Assembly: GCA_025765595.1 (NCBI GenBank)
Contig: JAIVFH010000072.1
Location: 114,178-178,177, forward strand
Length of the DNA: 64,000 nt
DNA from: Obelidium mucronatum
Taxonomy: Eukaryota; Chytridiomycota; Chytridiomycetes; Chytridiales; Chytriomycetaceae
Direction of reading: 5' to 3'
Shown here: positions 3,824-64,000 of the stretch, in pieces
Layout: each line of letters begins with the position of its first letter
Position numbering within the stretch: position 1 is the stretch's first letter
Made by a program: the position numbers and the translations under genes
The notes under the pieces: generated by a model
Told to the model about the DNA's origin: nothing
The model's database searches: none
What the model saw: the letters and a program-made list of their open reading frames with translations, nothing else

Positions 3824-3863
3824 CGCAAAAACAAAAACAAAAATCAAAAAAGAAAGAAATCCA

Positions 3864-5169
3864 ATGGAGATTGATACGCCGTTCCTCGACAGCACGGGCA
3901 ACGACGCCTCGCTGCTCGTGCGGCTGCCGGATGCGCTTGTGGCGCGTGTGTTTTCGTTTGTTGAGTTTGGCGTGCTCGCGCAGTGTGCGGGCAGCGTGTG
4001 TGTGTCCTGGCGCAGCGCGCTGTACGGCAACGCGCTGCTGTGGACGCGGCTCGCGCTGCCGAAGTACGCCGTGCTGCTGCCGTATCTGCCGCACAACTGC
4101 GTGCGCCGCGTCGTCATCGCCGCGCCGCAGCCCGTCGGCGCAAAGCGCAAAGACGCCGCCGACTCGTGCCGTCTGCTCAACAACTACGGCCAGCACCGCA
4201 TCGAACACATCGTGCTCGAAGGCCACGGCATCGACACCGCAATCATGGAGTTCCTGGGTGCGTGCTGCGTCCCGTCCCCTTAAATCGTCGTCTGGCGTCT
4301 CTAACTACTCTCAAACCCTCTCTCCACCTGCAGCCCGCATCATCACCCCGCATCTGGTCCACATCCAGTTCCACCACGTCGGCCTGTCCTTCGAGCGCAA
4401 GCAGTTCCTGGCCGTGCTGCAGCGCGCACAGAACGTGCGCTCGCTGCGCATCACCCGTCGTCCGTTCAAACGTGCAACTATTCTGTCGCCGCTGCTGTCT
4501 CTGTTTAGTCATACTCTCACCCATTTGCGGCTGGACAATTTGGCTGCGGAGCAGATTCCAAACTTTGGAGCTATAGTCCCAAACCTTGTGAGTTTGGAAT
4601 TGGATGGGCTGATGGAACTGGCCTATTGGGCCGAGACAAGATTTAATAGTACTAGTATAACGGATGACCTCGCGGACATTAATGATCTCACTGGGGCCGG
4701 CAACCATGTCGAAAGCATTCACAACCCTCCAAATCAACCCAGCAACAATTCTGCAGATAACATGACGATACATTCATCCTCGTTTCAAATTATTCCCCAA
4801 CTCCGCTATCTATCTTGTACAAATATGGACGAATCAGATCCAGACGCAGTATCGAAACTCATGTGTTTCCTCCTTTCAAAGTGCCCTCTCCTCACTCATC
4901 TTGTCTTTTCATGTCCAAATTATATGATGGATCTTTGGCCATGTGTCGAATTCTGGCTTAATATTCAACACGTACATTTGGATCACTGTTTCATTGCCAG
5001 TGATTTTGTGAGGGGGCTCCAAGCTGGGATTGGACAGCTTCGCGATCACCATTTAGCAACCTATGGCGTTTATCCGGCACATGTTTTACAAATCAAAATA
5101 GGGCGGTCTTGCCAAGTGGAGGATCCAGACCTTGTGCGATATGTGTTTGGGAATGATTGCTTTTTGTAA
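3864..5169 (+). CDS. F-box protein with LRR-like C-terminal region
   Basis: Two exons, 3864..4257 and 4334..5169, with a 76-nt intron (GTGCGT...CTGCAG) that restores the frame G|CC. The N terminus reads LVRLPDALVARVFSFVEF then CAGSVCVSWRSAL...LLWTRL, a clear F-box, which binds Skp1 in SCF ubiquitin ligases. The rest (VRSLRITRRPF, LTHLRLDNL, LVSLELDGL, IQHVHLDHCF) resembles irregular leucine-rich repeats that would select substrates; no substrate can be named. About 409 aa. The first exon and the start of the second (to about 4,480) are strongly GC-rich with G/C third positions, while the 3' two thirds are AT-rich, so base use changes abruptly within one gene. Confidence 0.8.
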
Positions 5170-6420: not shown

Positions 6421-6451
<31 letters not shown>

Positions 6452-45074: not shown

Positions 45075-45150
45075 TTGTTGGGTTTTCTATAAATAGAATC
45101 CAGCAGAATCACACGTCAAAACAAACAAACAAACACGAATCACCGAACGA

Positions 45151-47010
45151 ATGCTCAACAAACTCAGCAAGCAGAGCATCGCGTCCTCGCGCCGCCGCCG
45201 CCTCGTCCGGGCAGTGCTGCGGCTTGCGCTGCTGACGGCGCTGTTTGTGCTCGTCGCGTTCCCGCCGCGCTCGAAGCTCGACCTGCAGCTGCTCGCGTGG
45301 CGCCGCGCGCGCTGGCCGCCCGCGCCGCGTCTGCCGCTGCCGGAACCCCGCGCCGGCCACGTGCTCGGCGCGCCCGCCGCCATCCCGCGCCTCGTGCTGC
45401 GCACCTTCTGGACGCGCGACCCCGCCGCCATCGCCGCCGCCGCCCGCAACGGCTCAGACCCGGCGAAAGCGCGTCTGGCGTGGTTCTCGTCGTGGACGAA
45501 TCTCAATCCAGCGCATATTCAACTGATTCTTGACGATGCTGCGGGCGACGCGTTTGTCAAATCCCACTTTGCGAAATCGGTTGTCGACGCTTATCAAAAA
45601 CTACCATTGGTTGTACAGCGTGCAGACATGATACGATATCTGATGCTTTATGAGTTTGGAGGAGTTTACGCTGATATGGATACGCAATGCCTGTTACCAG
45701 TTGAAGAATGGACAAGTGGATTGAAACCCGGCTACTCAGCACCGTTCAATTTACTGCATACACAACCCGCGACATCCTCTGCAGCTTACGCCAATGATGT
45801 ATCAATGATTGTCGGTGTGGAAGTGAGTTCGGAAGTCCTCAATTGGCCTGTACTCACAAATGAACTCTTTTGCCAGGAATTCCGGGTAATTGGCGGAAAT
45901 GATCAGTTGACTCAATGGACCGCAGCAGTTTCTCCACAACACCCTTTTCTTCACCATTTCATTTTGAAACTTGTACAAAACATCCTCGAAGCCCCTCCCC
46001 ACGTTCTTGGCAGCAGTGATGCAGTGACCGGACTGACTGGTCCCGCATTTTGGAGCAAGATATTTTGGGAGTGGATGGAGAAACGGCATCCGTACTTTGA
46101 TATCAATCAAGTTATGGGGATGGAAAGAAACAGAAAAGTTGTTGGAGGAATATTGATTTTGGGTCAAGTGTATTGGCGATGGCCCGGAGTCTATGTTAAA
46201 CATTTTGGAACTGGTGAACAGCCAGGTGGTTGGAAAACTCGTAAAGGGGTTGTTACAAGCGACAGTTCAAACTCTTCGTCTCAGGTTGTTCTCAACAGCC
46301 GAAGACCCCCACCGCTCTCAAACGACACTCCAACCGTTGGGCTCTCGAGCGAGAACATTAAAACATCAATCTTAAGCATACCTCCTCGACTGATTGACAC
46401 AACATTACCTACTGATATGAAACACAGTCGCGCAGGAAGTTTTTGGAAGCGGAAGGGAAAAAACATAAATATTTACCCAGAACAGTTGCATGAATCATGG
46501 AAGAATCGGAATTCAGACCTGCTTCATCTGCAATTCCATGGAGAGGATATAGAAAGGTTTGTCAAGGGCTCATTTTCTCTTTCTGTGTGGAAGGCCTTCA
46601 TGAAACTCACCAAGTATGATCGAGTTGTTTTTGGGAGAATGTTGATGCTCTATCAATTTGGAGGGTTTACGTCATTAGTTGTTGGTGATATCAGTTTGGT
46701 TGGAGTGGGAAACGTCAAATGCCAAGTGCCACTCCGTGAATGGGGGCTTTTGGGTAATCCTCATATCAATTTGGTATTGAGTGGAAGTGGAAGAGCTACA
46801 GAGTCAGAAGGAGTTTCTCCAGACGTTGTTGGAGCAACACCAAGGCATAAGTTTGTTGAACAGGTTATTTTGCGAATGACAGAGGTGGTAATGGAAAGGA
46901 AAAAGCTTTCTTGGACAGAAGCTTTCATCACAGAATACAATTCTCTTGGAAGAAAATTCCTGAATGGCGAAGATGGTGGAGAATCTGTCCTTTTGGTTTC
47001 TAGCTTTTAA
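45151..47010 (+). CDS. GT32-type glycosyltransferase with second degenerate domain (paralogue)
   Basis: Intron-free, 619 aa. Basic N-terminal tail and signal anchor LRLALLTALFVLVAF (type II, Golgi). Domain 1: IPRLVLRTFWT, HIQLILDDAAGDAFV, QRADMIRYLMLYEFGGVYADMDTQC with DXD, then GGNDQLTQWTAAVSP and TGLTGPAFWSKIFWEW. Domain 2: HLQFHGEDIERFVKGSF, GRMLMLYQFGGFTSLVVGD, with no DXD at the equivalent site. Same two-domain layout as the gene ending at 34,388, so one arose from the other. The first ~380 bp are extremely GC-rich. Confidence 0.85.
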   Translation: MLNKLSKQSIASSRRRRLVRAVLRLALLTALFVLVAFPPRSKLDLQLLAWRRARWPPAPRLPLPEPRAGHVLGAPAAIPRLVLRTFWTRDPAAIAAAARNGSDPAKARLAWFSSWTNLNPAHIQLILDDAAGDAFVKSHFAKSVVDAYQKLPLVVQRADMIRYLMLYEFGGVYADMDTQCLLPVEEWTSGLKPGYSAPFNLLHTQPATSSAAYANDVSMIVGVEVSSEVLNWPVLTNELFCQEFRVIGGNDQLTQWTAAVSPQHPFLHHFILKLVQNILEAPPHVLGSSDAVTGLTGPAFWSKIFWEWMEKRHPYFDINQVMGMERNRKVVGGILILGQVYWRWPGVYVKHFGTGEQPGGWKTRKGVVTSDSSNSSSQVVLNSRRPPPLSNDTPTVGLSSENIKTSILSIPPRLIDTTLPTDMKHSRAGSFWKRKGKNINIYPEQLHESWKNRNSDLLHLQFHGEDIERFVKGSFSLSVWKAFMKLTKYDRVVFGRMLMLYQFGGFTSLVVGDISLVGVGNVKCQVPLREWGLLGNPHINLVLSGSGRATESEGVSPDVVGATPRHKFVEQVILRMTEVVMERKKLSWTEAFITEYNSLGRKFLNGEDGGESVLLVSSF

Positions 47011-48340
47011 AGTCATATCTGAAAACCGGGGGCTTAGGACAGATTCTTAGTAGATAAAAAAATTGTTAAAACATGACAATTACCAAAACTTTGACACAGC
47101 CAGATTGGCTGCTGATCAGTCAAAGCGGATCTTAATTTCTTTCATGTTATGGATTTAATTATTAAAACTTTCTTGTCATTAGGGAGGGTCTGGCTCGATT
47201 TAGAGTTGTCAACTTTGAAAACATTGGAATCCCAGCCAGTTGCCAACAAATTGCTGACTGTTGCGGTCAAAGAAGCTATTCATGTCACCACTCTCCAGAC
47301 TGTCATTGGTGCCAAGTACGGATGTGCCAAAGTGTGTGAACAACTTTGCTGCGGACTTGCCAAAGCCCAAAGTTTTGTTACCTTCGCTGCTCTTTTGGAA
47401 GTCACTGGAGTTCAAGCCCACGCCAGAGGTCTAGTTCCACGACATCAAGAACGCTGTTGCTTTTATTGCCAGCTGGTTTTAAGCATTGGTAATTCTTCGA
47501 TGCCCATCCCTTTTGAAGAAAAACTCTGCAGAATTGTGCAGTCAGCTGATAAAAACACAAAAAAAAGTTGAAAAAAGTAGGGTTTCTTTGCTCTGTTTTT
47601 TGATATTGAAGAAATTGTCCAAGTAAGACAACCAAAGTCTAATGGTCATGGGTTCTCTCCACGTAAGCAAATTGAGAGTCTGACCATCCAGAGCTCCAAA
47701 AAGATGATCATGAAGAATACTTCTCTTTATCAGTTTTGTCAGATGGAACAAACTGTTAGAAATCACCTGTCTTACAGGAACTGAAACTCAGGGCAGAAAT
47801 CTTGCCATTTCTGCAAGTTCTTGCAATTCCAAATAAATAACAAAGAAACCAAACTTAAATTAAACTGAAAATATAACTAGAGACATACGCTCAGTCACTT
47901 TGCTTCTTCGCAGTGCAGGTTGCAACTCCAGAGAAATTAGGACTTTATGCGATTGCAACACTTGTAACTTGTAAGCAGAAATTTTCTTTTTAGCAGAATT
48001 TCTATTTTGATTGCCAGAAAATTAAAAGATGATGTTATAACACTGGTAGGTGGGCAATGGGATAGGATGTAGGTGTCCACTGTGTTCAAACGCTCACATG
48101 ATGTCTTCAAGCAAAAAAATTGTCAGAAAAATGCAATATTAAAAAATAATACATAAAGAAAAGTAAAATTTCCAAATTTGGACTAAGTGCCACAGCCAAG
48201 CAACCAAGACTATGCTTCCAAGAAGCAGTTGTTGAATAAGCAGTTACCCCCAGTTCTTATGCCCAAAAGTAATAGGGCAGTTTGTCCAATCACCCCTACT
48301 TTGTTTGGAGTCCTGAAGTATCTTGATGGCCAAAAACTAC
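47011..48340. other. AT-rich repeat-derived DNA, no gene supported
   Basis: A 140-codon plus-strand frame at 47,149-47,571 and an overlapping minus-strand frame have no recognisable motif, and I regard neither as a gene. The region holds an inverted partial copy of the R1 repeat (47,876-48,040) and marks the change from compact genic DNA to transposon-rich DNA. Confidence 0.6.
47876..48040 (-). repeat. R1 repeat, inverted partial copy
   Basis: Reverse complement of 58,253-58,306 (shared core cagtcactttgcttcttcgc and gcagtgcaggttgcaactcc) and, further in, of 63,936-64,000 (core ttctggcaatcaaaatagaa). Confidence 0.85.
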
Positions 48341-49027: not shown

Positions 49028-49047
49028 TTGCAGGTAGCTTAGTCCAA

Positions 49048-49445
49048 GTACTATAGCGAGCGGCACTCCCGATTTTGCCCCTATTCAGACTCCTATTCGG
49101 AAAAACGATTCCAAGTCCGACTAGGGCCCAATTCGGGTCCAAATCGGAGTCCGAATCGGACTAGGCTGTCTGTTAGGCCTAACGGCACTCAAAGGGACTC
49201 CAAACGGACTCCAATTGAGCTCCAAATGCGCTTCCAATTGGATTTACAGCTCCTAACGGCTTTTTCAGCCCATTGCTAATAGCGCGTTGATAGTCCTAGT
49301 CGGAAAGCTAGTCAAACGCAGCTAGGAGTCCTACTAGGATCCCCGTTAGGACTCCAAATCTCAAAAACGTTGTGGGTTTGAAGCCATCAGAAAATTTTTC
49401 TGAGTCTTCATCCTGAAATTTTCTGCCAAAAATTGACTCGATTAG
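49048..49445 (+). mobile_element. Outer terminal inverted repeat A, left
   Basis: About 390 bp starting GTACTATAGCGAGCGGCACT. Its reverse complement is at 62,475-62,828 with roughly 80% identity by eye. It contains dense short inverted motifs (CTAATCGGA/TCCGATTAG-like, CGGACTCC) that could be transposase-binding sites. Confidence 0.85.
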
Positions 49446-49567
49446 GACGAATCGGAACCCCCAACCGTCACTAAAACTCAAGAATAAGTCCCAAAAAATG
49501 TATCAAATAAGGAAGACAGCTATTTATTATCAATAAATAATTAAATAAGTAAATAAGTACACATTGC

Positions 49568-50844
49568 TCAACCCAGTGCTTGCAAAACCGATTCCCGTAT
49601 CTTCCAATTGCGATCTGTGGCATCGCGATTAATGTTGAAGGTAACTCCCCGCTTCTCCACCACAGCGCTTCCCACAAACCTGTCCTGGTTGTGCTTCACA
49701 GCCCAACTCGCTGTTCCCATTCCATCTGCCAGAATCAGCGAGATTCTCCGCTTTCTAGTATCTACCTCCGCCACCAACTCCGCTGCCTCCACAAATCTTC
49801 GCTCCCCTGAATGCCACATCCTGGTCCCATGTTTTTCATGCTTGAACATGGAAACAATCGCCTCCCCATGAACCGCTGGGATCACCACGTTTCGATCCGG
49901 TAGGTACAGCGCTGGCCATACCACAGGCAGTTCCGCGTCTTCCTCATCCACCACAACACTGAAGTTGATCCCGAAAGTCGAATTCTTGCTGTCCAGGTGG
50001 AACTTGAAGTCCCCGTTGTTTGAGCACGCAAGAAACGAGGAGGTGAAAATCCCAAAGATGGGATCGCACGCAGTTGCTACTTCCTATTGGTCTCGTTTTC
50101 GCAATTAGAAGGTGAGCGCTAAACTATAACAAACACATACCTTTGTAATGTTGGCCACCATCTCAAACGCCTCCCGATGTACCAGAGACTCCACAACGCC
50201 AGTGAGGTAAGCGACCAGCGGCTGAAGGCCCTCAAAGTGGGGCAGCAGCTCTGGCTTGATGTTCTCCTTTCCAAACACCGCCAGCCCGTTCGCTACTTTT
50301 TCGGCATGTTCTTTTACCTTGACAGACGCTACATCCGCTGGGTAGTGCGGGTCCTTGATGCCGTCTGCAACTCCAGTCCAGGAGCACAGGTTGATGACTC
50401 GCATGTTGCCGCGCGTCTTGACCTTTGGCTGCGAGCGTCGAAAGATAGCTGCGAGATCGCGGATGTGCGGCATGGCGTCCTTGAGTATATAGGGCGGCAG
50501 TTTGATTCTAATAGCACTCCCAAGTTGTTAGCAACGCTTGGACTGCAACAACACCAAAAAAACCCTCACCTCCCTGCAACAAGCTCTTCAACTCCGTCTG
50601 TGTTTAGACCGTACACAAACTCCTGTCCCTTGGTTCTGTCATCCAGCACTCGCAGCTCTGCAGGTTTTGTTGCTGAAAATGTTTAACACCAACCACAGCA
50701 AAAAAAGAAGTTGGCCCACCAACCTATAATATCAGCGCGGCTCAATCCCTGCTCAGACATGTGCTTTTGGCGTTTCAGCATCTGGTGTGCAGCGGTGGAT
50801 GCTGACTTTTTGACGCGTTTTCGTTTGTTACGCGTTTTGTCCAT
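49568..50844 (-). CDS. TET/JBP-like 2-oxoglutarate/Fe(II) dioxygenase, outer copy
   Basis: Exons (minus) 50844..50724, 50672..50570, 50507..50141, 50083..49568, 368 aa, same structure as the inner copy. The frame is open throughout, and coding differences from the inner copy are very few (for example NWKIRE for NRKIRE), so this copy looks functional. The double-stranded beta-helix reads FHLDSKNSTFGINFSV (HxD), LYLPDRNVVIPAV, AIVSMFKHEKHGT (second His) and RRISLIL (2OG-binding Arg). TET/JBP enzymes oxidise methylcytosine or thymine in DNA. Divergently transcribed from the broken JmjC gene at 51,008. The call relies on the HxD...H...R pattern and the known TET/JBP-KDZ association, not on a search. 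Confidence 0.5.
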
Positions 50845-51007
50845 TGCATTAATAGATTAATAGATAAATAAATAAATAATCAAGTTAACTCAACAATACT
50901 AAGGTAATTTATTGAATCAAAGTATTCCTTGCATATCAACGGCTACAAAGTTGTAATAAAGTATTCTCTGGTTTGTTGTGTTCTCCCTCATCACTTTGAC
51001 TTGAAGA

Positions 51008-52110
51008 ATGCGACACTCAACAAGACAACGCCAAGCCGCCGCCACTGCTGCCACCGCTGCCACCGCCTCAAGCAAACATACAGCAAAATCAGCCTCTTCT
51101 ATTAACCCGATCTCTGCAATTAGAGCGTGTCCTGCTGCTCCTGCTGAGATCCGCATCTACACCTTGCCAGACTGCAAAGCGATTGGAATCCCTCCTGCTT
51201 GCCAATCCTGGCAAGATTCTATTCCTGCCATCCTCCAGTATTCCTGCTGATTGCTTGACGTCAGGGGAGTATTTCCCCACAGCCTGCTACCATAACAATC
51301 AACCACACAAAAGGAGCTTTATTTCTGGGTTTTTTGATCCATTGGAGCAATGGGAGCTGCAGCATGCGGCGTTTTCTGCTCCAATCATGTTGTGTCAACC
51401 CATCAACCACTACCGCCACTCCCCCCTCCATCAGGACTATGGAACAGCCATCAACGTCCTTCTCCAATCACCCACCAATCAGCAGCTCTTCAAGCTGTGG
51501 GTGGTGCTTGTCCCCAGCGACCCTACAGCCATCATCCCTACCCTTTATCCCCTGTCTTTCGCTCAAGCCATGGCTTTGGAGGTGGGTCCTTCCTGCACAT
51601 ACACAGCCAGGATCTGCTTTGTAAAGAGGCCTGGCAATCTCTCTGTCATTCCTTCTGGATACCCGCACGCTGTGATCACAGTCTCAACAACCAAGGACGC
51701 GACATCCATCATGGGCGGCGCACAAGTAATCTTTCCAAAAGACTACCTGTATGTATACAAATACAATTGCGTCAGCAAGCACACGTTCCTTTGGGGGAAC
51801 ACAAATGTTAAGTACCACTACTATATGGTTTGGTTTTATTACCGCTCTACTTTCTTTAAGGGTTGCAATCGTGGTTGTCAGGAGTTGCAAGGGGACTTGC
51901 TAACTGTAGAAGAGTATAGCAATTGCAGGTTTGATGGGGTGAGGGATGTGGTGGCTGAGTTGGTGTCAAGTTGGGCGGGGTGATGCTGGAAGAGTGGCAG
52001 CAGCCAAAGCTGCAAAGCAAGGAATTGCCAAAAGGCTGAAAGTTGAACAAGCAAATAGGGAGAAGATGGAAAGGGCGAGACAGGCCAAAGTGGGATCAAA
52101 GAGAGAGTGA
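51008..52110 (+). pseudogene. JmjC-like dioxygenase, broken outer copy
   Basis: Homologous to the intact gene at 54,101. It lacks an internal segment at ~51,151 (the LATLDQIEQVLLDRSR part), which shifts the frame before LLLANPGKILF. A second frame change near 51,980 separates the body from the basic tail AKAAKQGIAKRLK. The core still reads SPLHQDYG and GYPHAVITV. Divergence from the intact copy (nearly every line has substitutions) is clearly greater than for the neighbouring TET/JBP-like gene. Confidence 0.8.
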
Positions 52111-52258
52111 TATTACCAAGTATCAAAGCACATGCAATAAAGAAAAACCGTCTGACACAATTAAAGGATTCTTTATTGCCAATATATTGGACTTAGAGCG
52201 TTGCGTTGATTGCGATTAGTTGGTTTTCCCCATCAGGCTGAACGCAAACTTATCAAAA

Positions 52259-52390
52259 ATGAGTTGCAAAGAATGGTGGCATTCTGGAATGCACAGAAGA
52301 ACAAAAGTAAAAATAACCAACATGTCCTTCATAGATGAAGCAAGAGCGATAGTTGTGCTGGCCAACGAGTTGCGGAAAGTCAAGCCATTC
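52259..52390 (+). pseudogene. KDZ transposase, 5' remnant
   Basis: First ~45 codons (SFIDEARAIVVLANELRKVK) matching the start of the inner transposase at 55,403, with a small insertion (HRRTKVKITN). The coding sequence is cut at 52,390, immediately before the inner GC-rich terminus. Confidence 0.8.
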
Positions 52391-52420
52391 CTACATAGGT
52401 ACAAGCAATTGGGGATGCGG

Positions 52421-52548
52421 GCCGGACCTCGCGAGTCGCGATACCGGGCGCGTTGCGTGTGCCACGGCCTGTTGGCAGGCCGCTCTGTACCTTTTTATGT
52501 GGGGCGCGAGCCGCAAGCCACTTGTTCACAGGCCGCTAACCCCCAACT
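52421..52548 (+). mobile_element. Inner GC-rich terminal repeat B, left
   Basis: GC-rich (gccggacctcgcgag, caggccgct, gcgagccgc, ttcacaggccgc) in an AT-rich setting. The same motif series occurs in reverse complement at 61,915-62,060. The module copy 2 begins directly after it, just as copy 1 begins after terminus A. Confidence 0.6.
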
Positions 52549-52659
52549 GTCACTAAAACTCAAGAATAAGCCACAAAAAATGTATCAAATAAGGCTGTTT
52601 ATTAAGGCTGTTTATTATCAATAAATAAATAAGTAAATAAGTAAATAAGTACACATTGC

Positions 52660-53937
52660 TCAACCAAGGGCTTGCAAAACCGATTCCCGTATCTTCCGAT
52701 TGCGATCTGTGGCATCGCGATTAATGTTGAAGGTAACTCCCCGCTTCTCCACCACAGCGCTTCCCACAAACCTGTCCTGGTTGTGCTTCACAGCCCAACT
52801 CGCTGTTCCCATTCCATCTGCCAGAATCAGCGAGATTCTCCGCTTTCTAGTATCTACCTCCGCCACCAACTCCGCTGCCTCCACAAATCTTCGCTCCCCT
52901 GAATGCCACATCCTGGTCCCATGTTTTTCATGCTTGAACATGGAAACAATCGCCTCCCCATGAACCGCTGGGATCACCACGTTTCGATCCGGTAGGTACA
53001 GCGCTGGCCATACCACAGGCAGTTCCGCGTCTTCCTCATCCACCACAACACTGAAGTTGATCCCGAAAGTCGAATTCTTGCTGTCCAGGTGGAACTTGAA
53101 GTCCCCGTTGTTTGAGCACGCAAGAAACGAGGAGGTGAAAATCCCAAAGATGGGATCGCACGCAGTTGCTACTTCCTATTGGTCTCGTTGTTGCAATTAG
53201 ATGGTGACTGTCAAACTATAACAAACACATACCTTTGTAATGTTGGCCACCATCTCGAATGCCTCCCGATGTACCAGAGACTCCACAACGCCAGTGAGGT
53301 AAGCGACCAGCGGCTGAAGGCCCTCAAAGTGGGGCAGCAGCTCTGGCTTGATGTTCTCCTTTCCAAACACCGCCAGCCCGTTCGCTACTTTTTCGGCATG
53401 TTCTTTTACCTTGACAGACGCTACATCCGCTGGGTAGTGCGGGTCCTTGATGCCGTCTGCAACTCCAGTCCAGGAGCACAGGTTGATGACTCGCATGTTG
53501 CCGCGCGTCTTGACCTTTGGCTGCGAGCGTCGAAAGATAGCTGCGAGATCGCGGATGTGCGGCATGGCGTCCTTGAGTATATAGGGCGGCAGTTTGATTC
53601 TAATAGCACTCCCAAGTTGTTAGCAACGCTTGGACTGCAACAACACCAAAAAAACCCTCACCTCCCTGCAACAAGCTCTTCAACTCCGTCTGTGTTTAGA
53701 CCGTACACAAACTCCTGTCCCTTGGTTCTGTCATCCAGCACTCGCAGCTCTGCAGGTTTTGTTGCTGAAAATGTTTAACACCAACCACAGCAAAAAAAAG
53801 AAGTTGGCCCACCAACCTATAATATCAGCGCGGCTCAATCCCTGCTCAGACATGTGCTTTTGGCGTTTCAGCATCTGGTGTGCAGCGGTGGATGCTGACT
53901 TTTTGACGCGTTTTCGTTTGTTACGCGTTTTGTCCAT
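52660..53937 (-). CDS. TET/JBP-like 2-oxoglutarate/Fe(II) dioxygenase, inner copy
   Basis: Exons (minus) 53937..53817, 53764..53662, 53599..53233, 53175..52660, 368 aa. A basic nuclear-type N terminus (MDKTRNKRKRVKKS) is followed by ADIIATKPAELRVLDDRTKG, KLPPYILKDAMPHIRDL, MRVINLCSWTGVADGI, then the catalytic beta-helix FHLDSKNSTF (HxD), PALYLPDRNVVI, SMFKHEKHGTRMWHSG and RKRRISLILADGMG. Fungal TET/JBP proteins are known to ride on KDZ transposons, which supports the call. The start codon is 163 bp from the divergent JmjC-like gene, so the two are probably co-regulated. If not TET/JBP it is another DSBH dioxygenase. Confidence 0.55.
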
Positions 53938-54100
53938 TGCATTAATAGATTAATAGATAAATAAATAAATAATCAAGTTAACTCAACAATACTAAGGTAA
54001 TTTATTGAATCAAAGTATTCCTTGCATATCAACGGCTAAAAAGCTGTAATAAAGTATTCTCTGCGTTGTTGTGTTCTCCCTCATCACTTTGACTTGAAGA

Positions 54101-55255
54101 ATGCGACGCTCAACAAGACAACGCCAAGCCGCCGCCGCTGCCACAGCCTCAACCAAACATACAACAGCATCAACCTCTTCTATCAACCCGATCACAGCAA
54201 TTAGAGCGTGTCCTGCTGCTCCTGCTGAGATCCTTGCCACTCTGGATCAAATTGAGCAAGTCCTGTTGGATCGCAGCCGCATCTATATCCTGTCGGACTG
54301 CAACCTGGATCTTACGCGCTTGGAATGCCTCCTTCTTGCCAATCCTGGCAAGATTCTATTCCTGCCATCCTCCAATATTCCTGCAGATCGCTTGACGTCA
54401 GGGGAGTATTATCCCACAGCCTGCTACCACAACAGTCAACCACACAAAAGGAGCTTTGTCTCTGGGTTTTTTGATCCATTGGAGCAATGGGAGCTGCAGC
54501 ATGCAGCGTTTTCCGCTCCAATCATGTTGTGTCAACCCATCAACCAGTACCGCCACTCCCCCCTCCATCAGGACTATGGAACAGCCATCAACGTCCTCCT
54601 TCAATTACCCACCAATCAGCAGCTATTCAAGCTGTGGGTGGTGCTTGTCCCCAGCGACCCTACAGCCATCATCCCTACCCTTAATCCCCTGTCTTTCGCT
54701 CAAGCCATGGCTTTGGAGGTGGGCCCTTCCTGCACATACACAGCAAGGATCTGCTTTGTAAAGAGGCCTGGCGATCTCTCCGTCATTCCTTCTGGCTACC
54801 CACACGCTGTGATCACAGTCTCAACAACCAGGGACGCGACATCCATCATGGGCGGCGCCCACGTCATCTTTCCAAAGGACTACCTGTATGTGTACAAGTA
54901 CAATTGTGCCAGCAAGCACACTTACCTTTGGGGGAACACCAACATCAAGTACCACTACTACATGGTTTGGTTTTATTTCCGCTCTACTATCTTCAAGGGT
55001 GCCAATGGTGGTTGTCATGAGTTGGAAGGGGACTTGCTAACTGTAGAAGAGTATAGCGATTGCAGGTTTGATGGGGTGAGGGATGCGGTGGCGGAGTTAG
55101 TGTCAAGTTGGACAGTGCGGGGTGATGCCAAAAGGGAAGCTGCAGCCAAAGCAGCGAAGCAAGGTGTTTCAAAAAGGCTGAAAGCAAAACAAGCAAATAG
55201 GGAGAAGATGGAAAGGGTGAGACATGCAAAAGTGGGAGGATCAAAGAGAAAGTGA
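54101..55255 (+). CDS. JmjC-like 2-oxoglutarate/Fe(II) dioxygenase carried by the transposon
   Basis: Single exon, 384 aa. Core: FFDPLEQWELQHAAFSAPIM, RHSPLHQDYGTAINVLL with iron ligands His156 and Asp158, KLWVVLVP (Lys177 a candidate 2OG contact), and VKRPGDLSVIPSGYPHAVIT with the third ligand His235. The PSGYPHAV segment is the strongest JmjC resemblance. The C-terminal ~45 residues are basic and helical (DAKREAAAKAAKQGVSKR...SKRK). JmjC enzymes demethylate or hydroxylate proteins, chiefly histones; substrate here is unknown. Lies between the divergent TET/JBP-like gene and the transposase, same strand as the latter (148 bp gap). Confidence 0.6.
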   Translation: MRRSTRQRQAAAAATASTKHTTASTSSINPITAIRACPAAPAEILATLDQIEQVLLDRSRIYILSDCNLDLTRLECLLLANPGKILFLPSSNIPADRLTSGEYYPTACYHNSQPHKRSFVSGFFDPLEQWELQHAAFSAPIMLCQPINQYRHSPLHQDYGTAINVLLQLPTNQQLFKLWVVLVPSDPTAIIPTLNPLSFAQAMALEVGPSCTYTARICFVKRPGDLSVIPSGYPHAVITVSTTRDATSIMGGAHVIFPKDYLYVYKYNCASKHTYLWGNTNIKYHYYMVWFYFRSTIFKGANGGCHELEGDLLTVEEYSDCRFDGVRDAVAELVSSWTVRGDAKREAAAKAAKQGVSKRLKAKQANREKMERVRHAKVGGSKRK

Positions 55256-55402
55256 TATCATAACTATAGAAGCACATGCAATAAAGGAAAACCCTATGAC
55301 ACAATTAAAGAATTCTTTATTGCCAATATACTGGACCTATAGCGTCGCATTGATTGCAATTGTTTGGTTTGCCCCAACAGGCTGAACGCAAACTTATCAA
55401 AA

Positions 55403-57457
55403 ATGAATTGGAAAGAAGGGAGGCATTCTGGAATGTCCTTTATAGATGAAGCAAGAGCTGTAGTTGTGCTGGCCAACGAGTTGCAGAAAGTCAAGCCGTT
55501 CTCCTTGACCAATGAAACAGTATTTACCTTGGCAGACAGAGTATTCCAGTGTCCAGGCATGGACGCGGTCAATCACTGGAAACCTGTCCAGCCATCTGTC
55601 CTTGTGGCTCCATTCTCGCAATGCCACAGGTGCACCAAAAACTTGACTTTCAGCAGCACGCAAGTAGTGGTGTTGGGAATGGAAGGCCCATACCACGCGT
55701 CGCTGTTCAAGGGCAACTGCACTAAATGCCGCATGTGGTACAATGTGGATTCTGTCGCGTACATGAGCGAAGACAAACAGAAGCAGCTGATAGAGATGTA
55801 TCCGCTTGAAACTATCATGTCAGTTGGCTTCCTCAAGATCAATGAGCAGTACTACGTCACCATACCTTTTGCGGATCTCTGGCTAAAGCACCTGCCGTCT
55901 GGCCTTCTGTTAGTCTATCCTTGCATGGTAAATACTAAATTGATCTTTTACTCATACTTCACACATAGGGTGAAGCTGTATCGTGAGCAGCGCACATATT
56001 CACTGGCCTTTCCAACCATCAAAGTGCCTGATCCAGACAGCGCGGTGATCTTCAAACGTGGATTTTACGTGTATCACATGCTACTACTACAGCAGTACAT
56101 CTCCAAGATCGCTGCCAATGATGACTATGAACATATGCGGTACACTCACTTCAGACCTTCCTGGGCCCCCAAAACAACACATTTGTGGAACAACTCCCTA
56201 TTTCTGGGTCCATACTTACCAAAAACAGGTGATTCTATTCATGACATCAGACCCGCGATGCGGGAATACGTCACCTTCATGACTGACTACTTCAGCAAGA
56301 AGTGGTGTCACCGCTGCGACGGGTGCCACCAGTTTTACAATGGCAAAGAAATCTCTGGCAGTGTAATGGATGGGAAAGTCATGGGACATCTCTTGTGTTC
56401 TGTGCCTGGCTGTGTGTTGCCTATTCTTGGTGTGAACACATTGTTCTGCTCATCGCATGCCCAGCTGAAGAATGAGTGCATCATCTCTGGCTGCAAGCGA
56501 AAAAAGACAGACACTGTTTTGAGTACCTGCGTTTGAGTACCTGCGGACTCAGCTCTCACAACGCGACTGTCCAGGAAATCATTGGGAAACAGTGAAACAA
56601 GGACTTTAAAGCGACGCGAAAGTCCAAGAAAACACAAACATCTACAGTGCATATTGATACACAAGAAAAAGGAGTTAGTAGCAGACCAGCGGTTCAAGTA
56701 CAGTCTGAAGCAGCGGTTCCTGCCTGGAATATTTATGGCTGTGTGGAGCTGCCGCATGATCATTGGAATATCTAAGATGTACTCTTTTGAGTCTTCTACC
56801 TTTATTTCTTGCTTCTTATGCCACTGTTTTGCGCGAATGGGCGAAGTACCTACATTTGTTTTCTACGATAGAGCCTGCCGCTTGCTCCAATCCCTACGCG
56901 CCCGACAAGTTGCAGGAAAATTCACAATATATGAAAGGTGCACTTAACTTATTTATTATTATGCGCTCTGTTCATTATATAGTGTTCTGTTCTTATACTT
57001 ACCACCAATCTTTGTTGGAATCAGGTTCTTGTACAAGACTGTTACGTTTGTGGTTGACAGGTTCCACTTTCGGATGCACAGGGACGACTTCTGTGCAGAG
57101 CATTGCGATCCAGCAAAATTCAAGGAATTGACGTCCGGAGGGCCTGCAAATGGAAAGGAAAGGTTTAACACGTCCGCGGCAGAACAGTGTGCCAAGTGGT
57201 TCGATCAGACCACTCACCTGATTCGCTTCCACGAGCCTGTCCAAGCGGATTTCATTATGTGGTGTCTCGCAGACTTGAGAAACGCTGACATCCAGAACAG
57301 AATTTCAAAGAAGAAAAGAGTTATTAGAAACGAAAGCAAAGATCAAATGGAAGCCGAGGGGGAACAACAAGAAAAGGATGACAAGGAAGATGATGAAGAC
57401 GCCAACAAAGATGATGGTGAAGGAGTGGAAGGGGATGAGGAAGAAGAGGATGAATAA
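55403..57457 (+). CDS. KDZ (Kyakuja-Dileera-Zisupton) transposase with CxC5/CxC6 clusters
   Basis: Two exons, 55403..56937 and 57025..57457, about 655 codons. A CxC5-like cluster (SQCHRCTKNLTF...NCTKCRMWY) and a CxC6-like cluster (KKWCHRCDGCHQFY, MDGKVMGHLLCSVPGC, LFCSSHAQLKNECIISGC) precede the KDZ core: FMAVWSCRMIIGISKMYSFES, TFVFYDRACRLLQSL, FVVDRFHFRMHRDDFC, then GKERFNTSAAEQCAKWFDQT and an acidic tail. These are the hallmarks of the KDZ family. An in-frame TGA at 56,534 sits inside a 14-bp tandem duplication (tttgagtacctgcg twice) in the linker between CxC6 and the core; it either kills this copy or lies in a very short intron. ATG at 55,403 is the first in frame. Confidence 0.8.
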
Positions 57458-57534
57458 ATAACAAAACTCACATTTACGATCTTGGTTTTCGCGCCCTTTG
57501 CGTCGACAGTGAGAAACACAGTACAGAGAGAATG

Positions 57535-58325
57535 AGAAAGCCCATTCGTCATCTGCATAGAAGTGTTTGGGAGCGGGAGAACGAGAAAGCCCATTCATCA
57601 CCACTGAATCAAACAACAAACTCGCGCCGCAGGACAGAGAGAATGAGAAAGCCCATTCATCATCTGCGTATCTGCAAAGTAGGAGAATTGCAGGTTGCTT
57701 GTCAACCTGTCATGCTAAAGGGGAGTTTGAGGGGGTTGAAGGCCAATTCCTTGTAGTTCTATTTATAGAAAAGATGTTCCTACTTTGTTAAAATGGTTTG
57801 AGGGTTAAGAAGGGGGTTTTTAATAGTTCTATTTTTAGAAAATGGACTCGTTCAAGCTGTTGCTTCCCTGGCAATTAAAGGAAAATTGACTTGGAAACCA
57901 AAGAAACTCCAGACAACACAACTGTCTCAAGAAGGGTTTTTTGACCTAAGTAATCATGTTTTACTTATTTAATTTTCTAGCTGCTGTCATGTCATGCTTG
58001 TCCACCTGGAAACCAGAATAAGTGTTTGTCTAATTGATTTCATCAACTAACACAAGCCAGATTAATGCTTAGTAAGCAGTACAGATTGCAGGCAGACTCG
58101 TGATGAGAATCAGTCTGCTTTTATCTTGTTTGACATCTTCTGGTTAAATTTGGAGACAGAGACGACAGTGTCTTTTAATTTCTGGCAATCAAAATAAAAA
58201 TTCTGACTTATCGCAAACACCCCTAGAAAGCAAATTTGTGCTTACAAGTTTTCTGGAGTTGCAACCTGCACTGCGAAGAAGCAAAGTGACTGAGCGTATG
58301 TCTCTAGTGAGAAAGCCCATTCATC
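57535..58325 (+). repeat. Dispersed 18-bp repeat, four copies
   Basis: gagaaagcccattcatca (one copy with cgtca) at about 57,535, 57,583, 57,647 and 58,308. The last copy abuts the right end of R1. Possible protein-binding or subterminal repeats of an element. Confidence 0.7.
57690..58306 (+). repeat. R1 repeat, internal copy
   Basis: About 615 bp starting attgcaggttgcttgtcaac, matching 63,395-64,000 in direct orientation with many small indels (shared: ttgtagttctatttatagaa; gggttaagaagg; ctgttgcttccctggca). Non-coding. Confidence 0.85.
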
Positions 58326-58550
58326 ACTACCAACTGCGCATTTTTGCCATTTTTTTGTTAAGTCACTTGGCAGGACAAAATTAAACGGCAATAATGTCAA
58401 ACTGCACCTGGACAACAATCCCCCTATCACTGCATTAATCTTTGTTGGCCTCCCTGCTGAAACAGCAAGCATGATTCTTTGATTTCTGATTGTGGTATAT
58501 GTTTTCTTCTCTTATTATTTATTTTTAATATTATGTCCCGATTAACATGA

Positions 58551-59147
58551 TTGCGAGCCAATCCTCGGGAAATTGTGGATCCAACCAAGGCACCGTGGCC
58601 GAGCCGGTGTGCCAAACCAGGATTGCGTCAACAAGCACCAAAATGGAAGCAGGGGGATCAGACTAAAGCAACAGAACAAACCAAAGCAATCACGGCCTCG
58701 CAGGTGGTCCTGTCCAACGGAGTTAACTCGAAGAAACCAAAGGCAACAATTCGGCTTGATCAAGGGACAGCTTCAAGGAGATCAACAGATGTGGAGTACA
58801 TCAATGCTGGACCAAGCAACACTAAGCCAAAAGCGCGGATACGGCTCAATCTGTCAAAAGGATTATACAAATCAAAAGAACAGATGAAGATGGAATCAAA
58901 AGAACAAGTGAAGATGGAACCTGTTGGCACTGGATGGAATCGTGGGGATGACAGATTTGGTGGATCTCCTGGACCAACACCAAAAGCGGAGGACAACGAT
59001 GATGAAATACTGTCGTATTCAAGTTCAGACGTGGGATCGGATTGGGGACCCGATTGGATGGTTTTGGTTGATGGGGAACTCATGGAAGGGCTCCCAATTG
59101 TTGATGGGGAATTGTACACGCCTGGGCAATACAGGGCAGACTTCTGA
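58551..59147 (+). CDS. Hypothetical protein inside the transposon, start unresolved
   Basis: Open frame of 198 codons without an ATG near its start. A repeated motif KPKATIRLDQG / KPKARIRLNLS and a Lys/Glu-rich stretch (KEQMKMESKEQVKMEP) are followed by an acidic, Asp/Gly-rich end (VDGELMEGLPIVDGELYTPG). An ATG at 58,548 lies in another frame that stops after 39 codons. Either an upstream exon exists or the gene is frameshifted. No family recognised. Confidence 0.35.
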   Translation: MRANPREIVDPTKAPWPSRCAKPGLRQQAPKWKQGDQTKATEQTKAITASQVVLSNGVNSKKPKATIRLDQGTASRRSTDVEYINAGPSNTKPKARIRLNLSKGLYKSKEQMKMESKEQVKMEPVGTGWNRGDDRFGGSPGPTPKAEDNDDEILSYSSSDVGSDWGPDWMVLVDGELMEGLPIVDGELYTPGQYRADF

Positions 59148-59265
59148 GAGTATATGTGGGTTATTTATTCCCTTCCTTCCCTACTCTCCGTTTGTCTTTT
59201 CACGAATAAAAAAACTTTGGGTTGTTTTTAAAGGTTTATTTTTAAAAAAATAAAGAAGATTTTCA

Positions 59266-61897
59266 ATGTCCAAACATCCATTAGCCCCAGGAGACGCCGG
59301 CACAGTCGCAGGTCTGCTGGACCGTATCTGCAACAGTCGGGACTGCAGACACTTCATCAATGTTGCGTTTTCCCTCCCCTCAGTTGCAGACGGGACGTGG
59401 ATTAGCCGCTACCAATAGATAACCAAGCGGCACGGGGATGGCTCCGTTAACCCCAAGTCACTCAAGTACCTTTGCAAGACAATCCACAGGTACGTGTTTT
59501 ACCCAAACATCTCAAAATTGGCGCCCAACGCATGCACAGACGCAATGCGAGAGCTGGTGCCGCATATAATCATGTAATGTTTATTCATCATTCTACACTA
59601 TCCTACCCACTATATCTAACATGCCTTATTTAAGTATGTTGAATACTAACTTTGCGCCAGTGGTGTACAACTATCACCTGAAAGAAAACGACGAACAGCT
59701 AATGACTGTTGTACACCTGGACTTGACGAAGACCTTGCAGCTCTGGCTGGACAAGTGGGGTTTGGTGTCATGTATCCTGACGAAAAAGAGCTGGACCTTG
59801 AGATAGCAAGAAAACTAATGCCGCGATTCATCTACGGTAATGTTTTATTTGACTTAAAGTGTATATGTATTGCTAAAGCTCTGTTTTTTGGTGTTATAGA
59901 TCGCAAGAATGTGAACAACATGTTCAAGGTGCGTTTTACCACACAACTGTACCCAGAGCCCAGCAAAACAAACGTGGATGGATCAAAGAACGCGGAGCGC
60001 TTGCACAGGGTCCCACTGCGGAAGTCGCGGATCAACCTGCAGGAAGCGATCCGGAATGAAGTTCGCAGGGAGCAACGCCAACGCGAGGATGGGAGTGAGA
60101 GTGGCTTTATTCTCCACATTTCCGATGACGAAGAAAAGGAAAGTGACGACGATGTTGTAATTGTTGGTCCAACGCTTGCAGGTATGTTTCTTTATTTTTA
60201 ATGTCCAAGACTAAGCACCAAGCATCGCCAACACCAGCCAAACAGCCCGCGCGCAAAACCTACAGCAAGACGCCCAGCTCTGCTAAACGCGATGAGACTG
60301 CTATGGAAAGGCGCAGAAGACGTAAGCGTTGTTAAAATGGGTTTCTTCAATTTTAATCATTTAAATTGCACAACAGGGTCTGTAAGTTCACCAGACAAAT
60401 GGGGAATCCAATCTGAAAGTGACGCAGACAATGGCACCGATGATAACGATGTCAATGCATCCTCAAGCGAGGACGCTCGCAATGATGACGAAGACTTGGA
60501 TGATGACGAAGATGACGACAAAGACGAACAAGTGTCAAGCCAGCCGCAGTCGTCTGGCTCTATCCGCAGCTGCATTAGTGATACGCAGCCTATTCCTTTG
60601 GATTACGATGATGGTGAAGATATGTTTTTATTGCTTGGCTAACAACATTCAGCTGATGAAGCTGACGAAAGTCCAGCACCAGAACCACCGAAAGCCAAAA
60701 TCGGAGTCACTCTTATTGCAGACAAGTCGACAAAGCTGCTTGTTGAAATTCCGTATGTGATGGATTGGAAAGACCGCTCTGTTTTAGGTAAGTGGATCCT
60801 TTCTTCCGCTGTGTTTCCTCAGAGTATTAACTCTGTTTTAGGTCCGAGTGACATCATCAAGGTCCTCTCAAGTCACGCAGCATTCCTGGCAAGGGGTATC
60901 CGCTGCGACTACGTGGAGCTTGTTGATGAAGATGGCTTTGGACGATCGTCATTTGTAATTCAATACACAGCTGTCTTTGGACAGATTGACATCAAAGCCG
61001 GATGCAGTGAGTGTGTTGTGATTTGTTTGAGCAGGGGAGGGGTACCAACTGCCTTTCTATTGATAGTCTCACAACCAGTGTTTGCTCGCCCTGCCGTTGT
61101 GACCCCCATTGTCATCACAATTGTATTCAACTCCAATGCTTCCCCGCCATGATTCGATGGAATCAACTTCAACGCAGTCGTCAATCCTGTTTTGACCAGC
61201 GGGACGTTTGGGAGGAGTGAAGGAGAAGCAAGTCGATGATGTGATGAAGTATGCGATCATCTACTGCAAGCTGTTGGCTGAAGGAAACATACGGAAGGAC
61301 AAGATCCCGGCAATGGTCAAGCAGGAGACTGGGTTGGTCAACTTCCCTGACAAGAAGGAGTCTGGATATGTGTATGTTGGGCTCCATTTGTACAATGAGG
61401 AGCTGAAAAAGGTGATTGCATGTTATTGAGCGTTTTCTGATTTTGCTACAGATCTTCCAACATACAGCGGAATGACGTTTACTTTTTAATTTGCAAAACG
61501 TCATTTTGTTGACTGGACCAAAAAGCTTGCGTTCCATGCAGGTGTTCCTGACAAAAACCACAATTCTGGCAGCTTCATCCAAGCATCCAACCACCTGCAC
61601 TTCTACAAGGCTGGACAAAGCCGCCATCGTACACAGTGGTTCGGGCCTTTGCAAACAACCAACATGTCAAGAAGGCGTATTGGCGGGAGCCGCTTCAGGA
61701 AGGAAGCGCAAGCAAGAAAGCAAAGCGCTGATCGGGGGTTTTTTTATTTATTGTTTCTTCAATATTTTGTTATGTTCAACTTCGCGCATCCTTTTTTGTT
61801 TTTGTTATTGTTGGTTACTTTGGATTTTGTTTATTACTTCAAATACATATGTTATGGTTTTAAAACTTTGTTTCTTACCTTTTTTGAAATAAAGTAA
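59266..61897 (+). pseudogene. Multi-exon accessory gene of the transposon, unknown function, with in-frame stops
   Basis: Eight exons join in phase: 59266..59573, 59661..59836, 59900..60181, 60238..60321, 60377..60613, 60653..60787, 60842..61006, 61200..61411, and a further exon from ~61,452. Segments: GDAGTVAGLLDRICNSRDC, LAALAGQVGFGVMYPDEKEL, LPLRKSRIN-type basic part, a long Asp/Glu/Ser-rich linker, VLSSHAAFLARGIRCDYVEL, KAGCTGRLGGVKEKQVDDV, YCKLLAEGNIRKDKIP, VDWTKKLAFHAGVPDKNHNS. Two stops break the model: TAG at 59,416 and TAA at 61,487. The consistent introns say it was a real gene; the stops suggest decay (or recoding/sequence error). No known domain seen; a transposition accessory protein is an inference from location. 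Confidence 0.55.
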
Positions 61898-61914
61898 GGA
61901 CAGCTTTCCACTGG

Positions 61915-62060
61915 CTCTCCACTGGCTGTCAACTGGCTTGCGGCCTGTGAACTAACTGCAACGCGGCTGGCTTTCCACTGGTTAGCGGCTCGCACGCGGG
62001 TCGCCCACAGGTTGCGAGCGGCCTGCTAAGCGGCCCGTTAGCGGCTTGCAAGGTCCGGCT
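61915..62060 (-). mobile_element. Inner GC-rich terminal repeat B, right
   Basis: GC-rich block with repeated cggcc, gcggct and tccactggct motifs. Its reverse complement shares the series gccggacctYgcRag, caggccgct, gcgagccgc and ttcacaggccgc with 52,421-52,548. Alignment is imperfect, so the exact ends are uncertain. Confidence 0.55.
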
Positions 62061-62235
62061 TGCTATGGGGACACTGCTAGGCTCCCTTAGTTTGAAATAG
62101 TACCCAAAGAACACCCCCCATTCTTTTCAGCTTTTGATCTTTCTCCTGACTGGTTGACAAGCAAACCTGCAATTTCATGGCACATTTTTTCCCTTCATCA
62201 ATTTTCACCCTGCATATTTATTAACAATTTTAATA

Positions 62236-62405
62236 CCTGCCTGAGAGAAAAACTTAGACAGTTTATCACTCATTCTTAACTTTGAATAATTTGTCTCACC
62301 AATAATTGTTCAATGCTACTGCCATTTTTATATAAATTCTTGATTGCATGCAAACATAGCTACTTATTTTGTAGTGAATGAATTCCGGATTGTGCAATCT
62401 GAACA
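62236..62405 (+). repeat. Repeat family C, copy 2 (lacks the MITE)
   Basis: Direct match to the flanks of the insertion at 48,413-48,885; runs straight from tctaac/ttaacttt into ttgtctcacc. Confidence 0.8.
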
Positions 62406-62474
62406 TATGTTAGACACAAGTTTGTATTACATCATTCATTAAACCCATTGAGGGGACTGGTCAACAACTGTTTC

Positions 62475-62828
62475 CATTTGAGTGAAAATTTTGGCAGAAA
62501 ATTTGAGGATGAAGGCTCAGAAAATTTTTCTGATGGCTTCAAACCCACCAGATGCACAAAGTTTTTGAGATTTGGAGTCCTAATGGGCACCCTAGCCACT
62601 TTTGACTAGCTTTCCGATTAGGACCATCAACTTGCTATTAGCGATGGGCTCAAAAAGCCGTTAGGAGCTGTAAATCCAATTGGAAGCGCATTCGGAGCTC
62701 AATTGGAGTCTGTTTGGAGTGCCTTTAGGCCTAACAGACAGCCTAGTCCGATTAGAATTGGACTCCGAATCATTTTCCGAATAGGAGTCCGAATCGGGTC
62801 GGAATCGGGAGTGCCACTTGCTATAGTA
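62475..62828 (-). mobile_element. Outer terminal inverted repeat A, right
   Basis: Ends in ggcaatcgggagtgcc-like sequence then cttgctatagtac. Inverted match to 49,048-49,445. No clear target-site duplication: ttagtccaa precedes the left end and atgcccc follows the right end. Confidence 0.85.
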
Positions 62829-63394
62829 CATGCCCCGCCGTTGCTGCAATGGTCGCTGCCCCCATTGTCGCAACACCCATTGTTGCTGCCATTGCTGCTA
62901 CAACTGCCATTGCTGCCATTGCTGCTACAACTGCTACTGCCATTGCCGTTACCTCCGCCGTTGTGTCCACCTGTAGTTCCACTTCCCTGCAATCCTTGGC
63001 TATTTACACAGTCTTTTTGAGCTTCTCAAAAGCTGCTAGATACACTCTCACAGTCCAGGGTACTCTGGCAAACCCCCATTCAAATGCCCTATGATTCTTG
63101 AGCCTTGAAATACTTGGCTGCGCTCTGGAGGTACGAGATGGTCCAGATTTGTTTGCAATTTTGGGGAGAGCCTATAGGGAAGATATGGAAAAATGGGTGT
63201 GTTTTTGCAACTTTTGATGAGTTTGACTAGAGAAAGGGATAGTTCATTTGCCATTTGCAGATCACGTTTTTTCCTTCTAAAAAAAAACTAGCCAACACAC
63301 ATGTTCTCATTTGATGCCTCCAGCAGCCCCATCCAGATCAGCAAGAGACCACAGAATGATCAGTTTGGATTTAAGCAACTACTTGAAGAAACAG
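62829..63394. repeat. Degenerate GCT/GCC/ATT triplet tract and flanking DNA
   Basis: From 62,834 to ~63,000 an imperfect triplet repeat (attgctgcc, actgccattgctg) keeps frames open on both strands (Ala/Ile-rich or Gly/Ser/Asn-rich). I see no gene. The remainder to 63,394 holds no supported feature. Confidence 0.6.
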
Positions 63395-64000
63395 GACCAT
63401 TGCAGGTTGCTTGTCACCGGTTGTTAAGGGGGAGTTTGAGGGGGTTGGAGGCCCATTCTTGTAGTTCTATTTATAGAAAAGATGTTCCTACTTGTTCAAA
63501 TGGTTTGAGGGTTAAGAAGGGTTTTTTAATAATTCTATTTTTAGAAAATGGACATGTTAAAGCTGTTGCTTCCCTGGCATTTTAGAAAAATTGACTTGGA
63601 ACCAAAGTAACCTCCATATAGCACAACTGTCTCCAGAAGGATTTTTTGACCTGAGTAATCATGTTTATACTTATTTAATTTTCCTGCTGCTGCCATGTCT
63701 GCTTGGCTACCTGAAAACCAGAAGTAAGCCTTTCCTCTAATTGATTTCATCAACTAACACAAATAATGGAAGCTCTAAAAGAAGCCAAATAAGAAGTGAC
63801 ACAAGGCAGATTTAATGCTTAGTAAGCAGTAGGATTGCAGGCAGACCTCATGATAGAATCTGCCTGCTTTTGGCTTGTTTGACAACGTCTGGTCATCCCC
63901 CCAAGATTTTTAATTTGGAAAACAAGAAGACATCTCTTTTAATTTTCTGGCAATCAAAATAGAAATTCTGCTAAAAAGAAACTTTCTGCTTACAAGTGTT
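63395..64000 (+). repeat. R1 repeat, right copy, runs off the window
   Basis: Direct copy of 57,690-58,250. The last 65 bases also match the inverted copy at ~47,945-48,040. Confidence 0.85.

Follow-up and report, generated by a model that had tools for sequence, protein, structure and literature searches.

A KDZ-type transposon of the chytrid Obelidium mucronatum with a head-to-head pair of TET/JBP-like and JmjC-like genes and a possible role in countering its own silencing

Can a transposon carry the enzymes that would lift the marks by which it is silenced? The question is raised by a KDZ-type transposon of the chytrid Obelidium mucronatum, located in a 64,000-nucleotide stretch of DNA (the window; positions 114178-178177 of contig C72 in a 48.3-Mb, 694-contig assembly, within which all genome-wide counts were made). 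Two divergent genes, one TET/JBP-like and one JmjC/Cupin_8-like, accompany its transposase gene. From the sequence we infer the substrates and the role of this pair, and a probability of about 0.5 is given to the reading that this is a KDZ-type transposon whose paired dioxygenases would counter its own silencing. The main features of the element, in window positions, are:

52406..62074, forward strand: KDZ-type transposon with complete ends (left CAATTGGGGATGCGGGCCGGACC.., right ..GGTCCGGCTTGCTATGGGGACAC), sharp and identical across many copies
52660..53937, reverse strand: TET/JBP-like gene, copy 2 (exons 53817-53937, 53662-53764, 53233-53599 and 52660-53175; 368 amino acids)
53938..54100, no strand: 163-nt gap between the divergent start codons, a candidate shared promoter
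54101..55255, forward strand: JmjC/Cupin_8-like gene, intact, 384 amino acids (HxD H156/D158, K177, distal H235)
55433..57457, forward strand: transposase gene with CxC5 and CxC6 clusters, broken in the window
58530..61900, forward strand: further gene region of the element, with open reading frame pieces that recur at loci L009, L012, L013 and L017 and no family match

The transposon begins with CAATTGGGG at 52406 and finishes with GGGGACAC at 62074, so that the limits of 49048 and 62828 set in a preliminary description of this DNA have been replaced. The flank upstream of the left end (CAATTGGGGATGCGGGCCGGACC) differs from copy to copy, the right-end consensus is ..GGTCCGGC(T/C)(T/C)GCTATGGGGACAC, and the inner portions of both ends form short imperfect terminal inverted repeats. 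Copies with both ends were picked using a strict pattern for the left and right end (n=6). Perfect 8-bp target-site duplications flanked four of the six (C332, AAAACACA; C52, CACAATTC; C45, ATGAGAAG; C233, CTGTCCAA); the C541 copy and that in the window have both ends and no duplication. Copies on C120 and C142, with a variant right end followed by a flank identical in both, were left out of this count. Given these ends and duplications, the mobile unit includes both dioxygenase-like genes, and a real transposon family carries them as a two-gene passenger cassette. The gene order is TET/JBP-like (-), JmjC-like (+), transposase (+) and further gene region (+). The C233 copy, 4.9 kb in length, is inserted in a second copy, within the transposase gene; most of its own transposase is gone and both accessory genes are still open.

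A genome search with the TET-like exon listed 40 places, a lower bound to which all counts out of 40 refer. The JmjC-like gene was divergent within 1.5 kb in 33 of them and on the same strand in none; among the matches listed, head-to-head pairing is therefore beyond chance, as the preliminary description had proposed in making the JmjC-like gene a constant partner. Of the 33 pairs listed, 28 had a head-to-head distance of 450-486 nt, and three of the seven places without a divergent partner were at a contig end. The genome-wide count of co-occurrence that had been put forward as a check gave a piece of the family-1 transposase (that of the present element) within 4.5 kb in 18 of the 40 places. 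When 63 merged JmjC-like places were counted by hand, 33 had the TET-like gene, 24 a downstream transposase and 16 both. With so little sequence between their start codons, the two genes may share a promoter, by which both proteins would be made simultaneously.

Both accessory genes are under purifying selection. The ratio of nonsynonymous to synonymous change (pN/pS) was 0.14 and 0.13 for the TET-like exons (11 and 10 copies, that on C128 with stops), 0.30 for the JmjC-like gene (10 copies) and 0.28 for the transposase (6 copies). The other five aligned frames, used as controls, gave 0.45-1.73 and 0.29-3.88, the lowest value in each being that of an antisense frame.

The HxD...H iron-site motif first noticed in the two divergent genes was found to be conserved across copies. 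Each of the two TET/JBP-like genes in the window has three GT-AG introns of 51-62 nt. In copy 2 the motif residues are H226/D228 (HxD), distal H282 and R310, which we take to be the 2-oxoglutarate (2OG)-binding Arg; HxD, distal His and Arg were kept in order in 11 of 11 TET-like copies. In the JmjC-like gene the order is HxD, Lys and distal His, with HxD and Lys kept in 10 of 10 copies and the distal-His pattern in 9 of 10; K177 presumably has the role of the lysine in the JmjC/Cupin_8 motif.

Profile alignments within the genome were compared with those of 150 shuffles. Against the genome's Tet_JBP genes the TET-like profile aligned over 72 columns, with FHLDSKNSTFG on the canonical HxD segment, and no shuffle was as good; against JmjC sequences 60 to 145 were. 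The JmjC-like profile behaved in the opposite manner, with 143 shuffles as good against Tet_JBP and none against the JmjC/Cupin_8 locus L042 (29 columns). At the other JmjC/Cupin_8 loci as many as 3 (L038), 9 (L044) and 24 (L039) shuffles did as well, and no similarity was obtained to L041 or L043; in the L044-family alignment the HxD and distal His superpose with those of the JmjC-like gene. On motif order and these shuffle-beating alignments one gene is weakly identified as TET/JBP-like and the other as JmjC-like, and Fe(II)/2OG dioxygenase identity of both products is likely. Like the genome's own canonical Tet_JBP genes (PF12851, 8 matches), to which its profile alignment is specific, the TET-like gene has HxD(S/N)KN..G and the distal His in the same order; unlike them it does not match PF12851, and no further similarity was found. 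The JmjC-like gene has HxD ... K-x-W ... P, then PxGxxH, in common with the genome's JmjC/Cupin_8 proteins and differs from them in not reaching any Pfam threshold (its best alignment spans 29 columns, E 0.0025).

Two other TET-like sequences were seen in the genome. At L023 (C78), 1667-2212, there is a divergent relative (53% identity) whose open frame encodes 182 amino acids and has YVD in place of HxD; compared with the element's gene, its pN/pS is about 0.34. At L024 (C95), positions 701-2184 contain fragments of a canonical TET and of a divergent TET-like sequence in tail-to-tail orientation.

The transposase had been described as having CxC5/CxC6 clusters and a KDZ core. CxC6 (PF18721) was matched above its cut-off (E 5e-12, 46-50 bits against 27.5) and CxC5 (PF18718) below it (E 1e-4, 22-23 bits against 26.9). 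The core was not recovered: in two full-length transposases the KDZ core model PF18758 had no match at E 10, its 16 matches in the genome include none at this element, and profile alignment to the genome's Pfam-KDZ proteins was not significant (E 0.76). The 8-bp target-site duplications, in four of six copies, are within the 7-8 bp length of those of KDZ transposons. The window gene has a 39-codon deletion and loses its frame near 56536; open frames of 727 and 747 amino acids are present in C52 and C541.

At L026 (C121:72000-80000) lies a member of a second transposase family, which has about 48% identity in the CxC6 part and 38 rows genome-wide. The L026 copy has a gene resembling the element's further gene, and no TET-like or JmjC-like gene was found in that copy. 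That this second family carries the same gene pair was considered and rejected, as a TET-like or JmjC-like piece lay within 4 kb in 6 of the 38 rows and the layouts differed.

CpG methylation of the family is indicated by its base composition. Across copies, transitions at CpG sites occurred in 5.1% of 8460 cells, against 0.7-1.2% at CpA, CpC and CpT, and the CpG observed/expected ratio was 0.65 and 0.71 in two window copies against 0.99 in positions 1-46000. The host genome has 22 DNA_methylase matches above cut-off. Because CpG-to-TpG decay is accompanied by host cytosine methyltransferase genes, the transposon family was very probably methylated at CpG in the past, and these observations would fit an anti-silencing function of the pair. 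In Spizellomyces, another chytrid, 5-methylcytosine (5mC) is confined to transposons according to the available text of PMC12695648.

Should the favored reading be correct, a KDZ-type cut-and-paste transposon carries a TET/JBP-like and a JmjC/Cupin_8-like dioxygenase as a head-to-head pair, and a shared promoter would allow both enzymes to be produced simultaneously. On new copies, 5mC or a different modified base would be oxidised by the TET-like enzyme. The JmjC-like enzyme would oxidise a chromatin protein or some other nuclear partner, and together the two activities would delay silencing long enough for expression and jumping. This anti-silencing role is our best inference for the gene pair. 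More tentatively, the two may be a matched pair of erasers, of a DNA mark and of a chromatin-protein mark, which from their shared promoter would lift both layers of silencing; the transposase-poor C233 copy keeps the pair.

Several results weigh against the anti-silencing reading. In Pfam scans run to E 10 there was no match to the TET/JBP-like gene (PF12851 included) or to the JmjC-like gene (PF02373 and PF13621 included), and PDB profile searches with both proteins gave nothing below E 0.1. The alignments within the genome were modest (TET-like to Tet_JBP, E 0.013, HH probability 3.5%; JmjC-like to L042, E 0.0025, HH probability 12%), and that to L042 spans only the strand with the distal His. 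AlphaFold2 models had a mean predicted local distance difference test score (pLDDT) of 31.6 for the TET-like and 32.8 for the JmjC-like protein and were unusable for recognising a double-stranded beta-helix fold, an expected outcome with 11 and 7 sequences that are nearly identical; when the JmjC-like model was searched with Foldseek, 145 matches were returned at E up to 10 and none at 0.001. Thus the profile hidden Markov model searches and structure prediction by which TET/JBP and JmjC identity was to be checked did not confirm it, while motif order and the profile alignments still point that way, and for want of a Pfam, PDB or structure match the genes are called TET/JBP-like and JmjC-like and not members of those families. 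Protein searches for relatives, which detect only sequences with exact 5-residue words in common, gave 12, 16 and 8 proteins, all of O. mucronatum and none from outside it. As all homologues found are in one species and the copies have common ancestry, the pairing represents one inherited linkage that was kept, not many independent events. Finally, the second transposase family, without the gene pair in the single copy examined (L026), has the same CpG bias (5.4-fold in 17 sequences against 3.8-fold in 7 sequences of family 1; consensus CpG ratio 0.38 against 0.54). Since the bias recurs in that family, decay shows methylation and not its removal, and it does not show protection by the pair; CpG decay as proof of demethylation was rejected for this reason.

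Other functions of the pair were weighed on the same evidence. Both enzymes could act on DNA or RNA, the TET-like one on a base (5mC, N6-methyladenine (6mA) or thymine) and the JmjC/Cupin_8-like one on nucleic acid or the transposase. The Cupin_8 group is not limited to histone demethylases, the JmjC-like profile matches include the Cupin_8-type L038 (3 of 150 shuffles as good), and the Pfam scan gave no histone-reader domain; we regard this account as unlikely, although CcTET oxidises both 5mC and 6mA in the available text of PMC12730594. With the TET-like gene as a working anti-silencing factor, the JmjC-like gene might be a passenger or non-enzymatic. pN/pS is indeed lower for the TET-like exons (0.13-0.14) than for the JmjC-like gene (0.30), a sign of stronger selection, and of the two JmjC-like copies in the window only the right one is intact, whereas both TET-like copies are open. 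The value of 0.30 is, however, close to the 0.28 of the transposase, and HxD and K were kept in 10 of 10 open copies; a passenger is considered quite improbable. That neither gene is a 2OG dioxygenase, and the HxD...H motifs are a coincidence, would agree with the absence of support from protein families, the PDB or predicted structures. Against it stand the order of the motifs, the conservation of their residues and the profile alignments, in which each gene matches its own group and not the other; such a coincidence is considered very improbable.

TET/JBP-carrying KDZ transposons of fungi were reportedly described by Iyer et al. in 2014. In the available text of Kojima 2025 (PMC12730594), TET/JBP genes are present in 11 transposon lineages of Pucciniomycetes, Agaricomycetes and Pezizomycetes, which encode no additional protein for further modification, and target-site duplications are 8 bp in Dileera and Zisupton and 7 bp in Kyakuja. 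The available text of a 2026 review (PMC13297926) repeats a range of Basidiomycota and Pezizomycetes, and the words chytrid, Obelidium and JmjC are absent from the main text of PMC12730594. The literature searched contained no chytrid TET-carrying KDZ transposon and no JmjC-like partner, but subscription literature was largely outside its scope and absence is unproven. As described in PMC12730594, the TET/JBP KDZ transposons of Basidiomycota and Ascomycota share several features with the Obelidium element: they are of the cut-and-paste type, have KDZ-associated cysteine clusters, make target-site duplications that are short, and enclose a TET/JBP-like gene between their ends. The Obelidium element differs in its chytrid host, its head-to-head JmjC-like second dioxygenase gene, a TET-like gene without a Pfam match and an unmatched KDZ core model. 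Oomycete transposons with SET histone methyltransferase genes (same text) likewise have a captured chromatin-modifying gene, there a writer alone and here two candidate erasers. TET-carrying transposons are hypothesised to evade DNA methylation. If the favored reading is true, a single cassette with two different candidate erasers would amount to a naturally occurring anti-silencing kit of two parts, TET capture by transposons would extend to chytrids, and a direct test of anti-silencing would become possible.

Canonical Tet_JBP genes were also seen in mobile settings. At L066 (C225:3000-11500) one such gene (3841-4830; E 1.6e-7, slightly under cut-off) is convergent with a Plavaka transposase (6421-7677; E 1.5e-22), probably a TET-carrying Plavaka in a chytrid. 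A second Tet_JBP gene is near-identical in several places (two on C41, and on C21, C39 and C23; L033, L035-L037) and is therefore probably mobile.

The remaining features of the window surround or interrupt the element:

49045..49434, forward strand: left arm of a long inverted repeat, a different repeat family
49456..52405, forward strand: older copy, left-truncated, with TET-like gene, broken JmjC-like gene and transposase start, ending where the second element inserted
49568..50844, reverse strand: TET/JBP-like gene, copy 1 (exons 50724-50844, 50570-50672, 50141-50507 and 49568-50083; 368 amino acids)
50999..52110, forward strand: broken JmjC-like copy with a 56-nt deletion and lost frame (source annotation P0011, 235 amino acids)
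57688..58308, no strand: inserted repeat between the transposase and the next gene, related to 63399-64000
62486..62832, reverse strand: right arm of the same inverted repeat

The inverted ends of the preliminary description correspond to the long inverted repeat at 49045-49434/62486-62832, which does exist but is that of another family, matched at 40 or more places in the genome. It was ruled out as the transposon terminus by the element's own ends at 52406 and 62074 and by the junction in C79, where it starts within the right end of another transposon copy, whose end is missing from that point. Tandem copying of the module, earlier taken as duplication of the two genes as a unit, was also discarded: the left unit is a separate copy. 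It lacks the initial 132 nt, and the complete-ended element 52406-62074 interrupts its transposase gene at 52405. The repeat at 57688-58308 was not present in five other transposon copies (L009, L010, L012, L013 and L017). Its copies lie around and inside the element (57688-58308, 63399-64000 and 47876-48029), and these repeats are adjoined by a reading frame at 45097-47010 with a Gly_transf_sug glycosyltransferase domain (E 9e-16).

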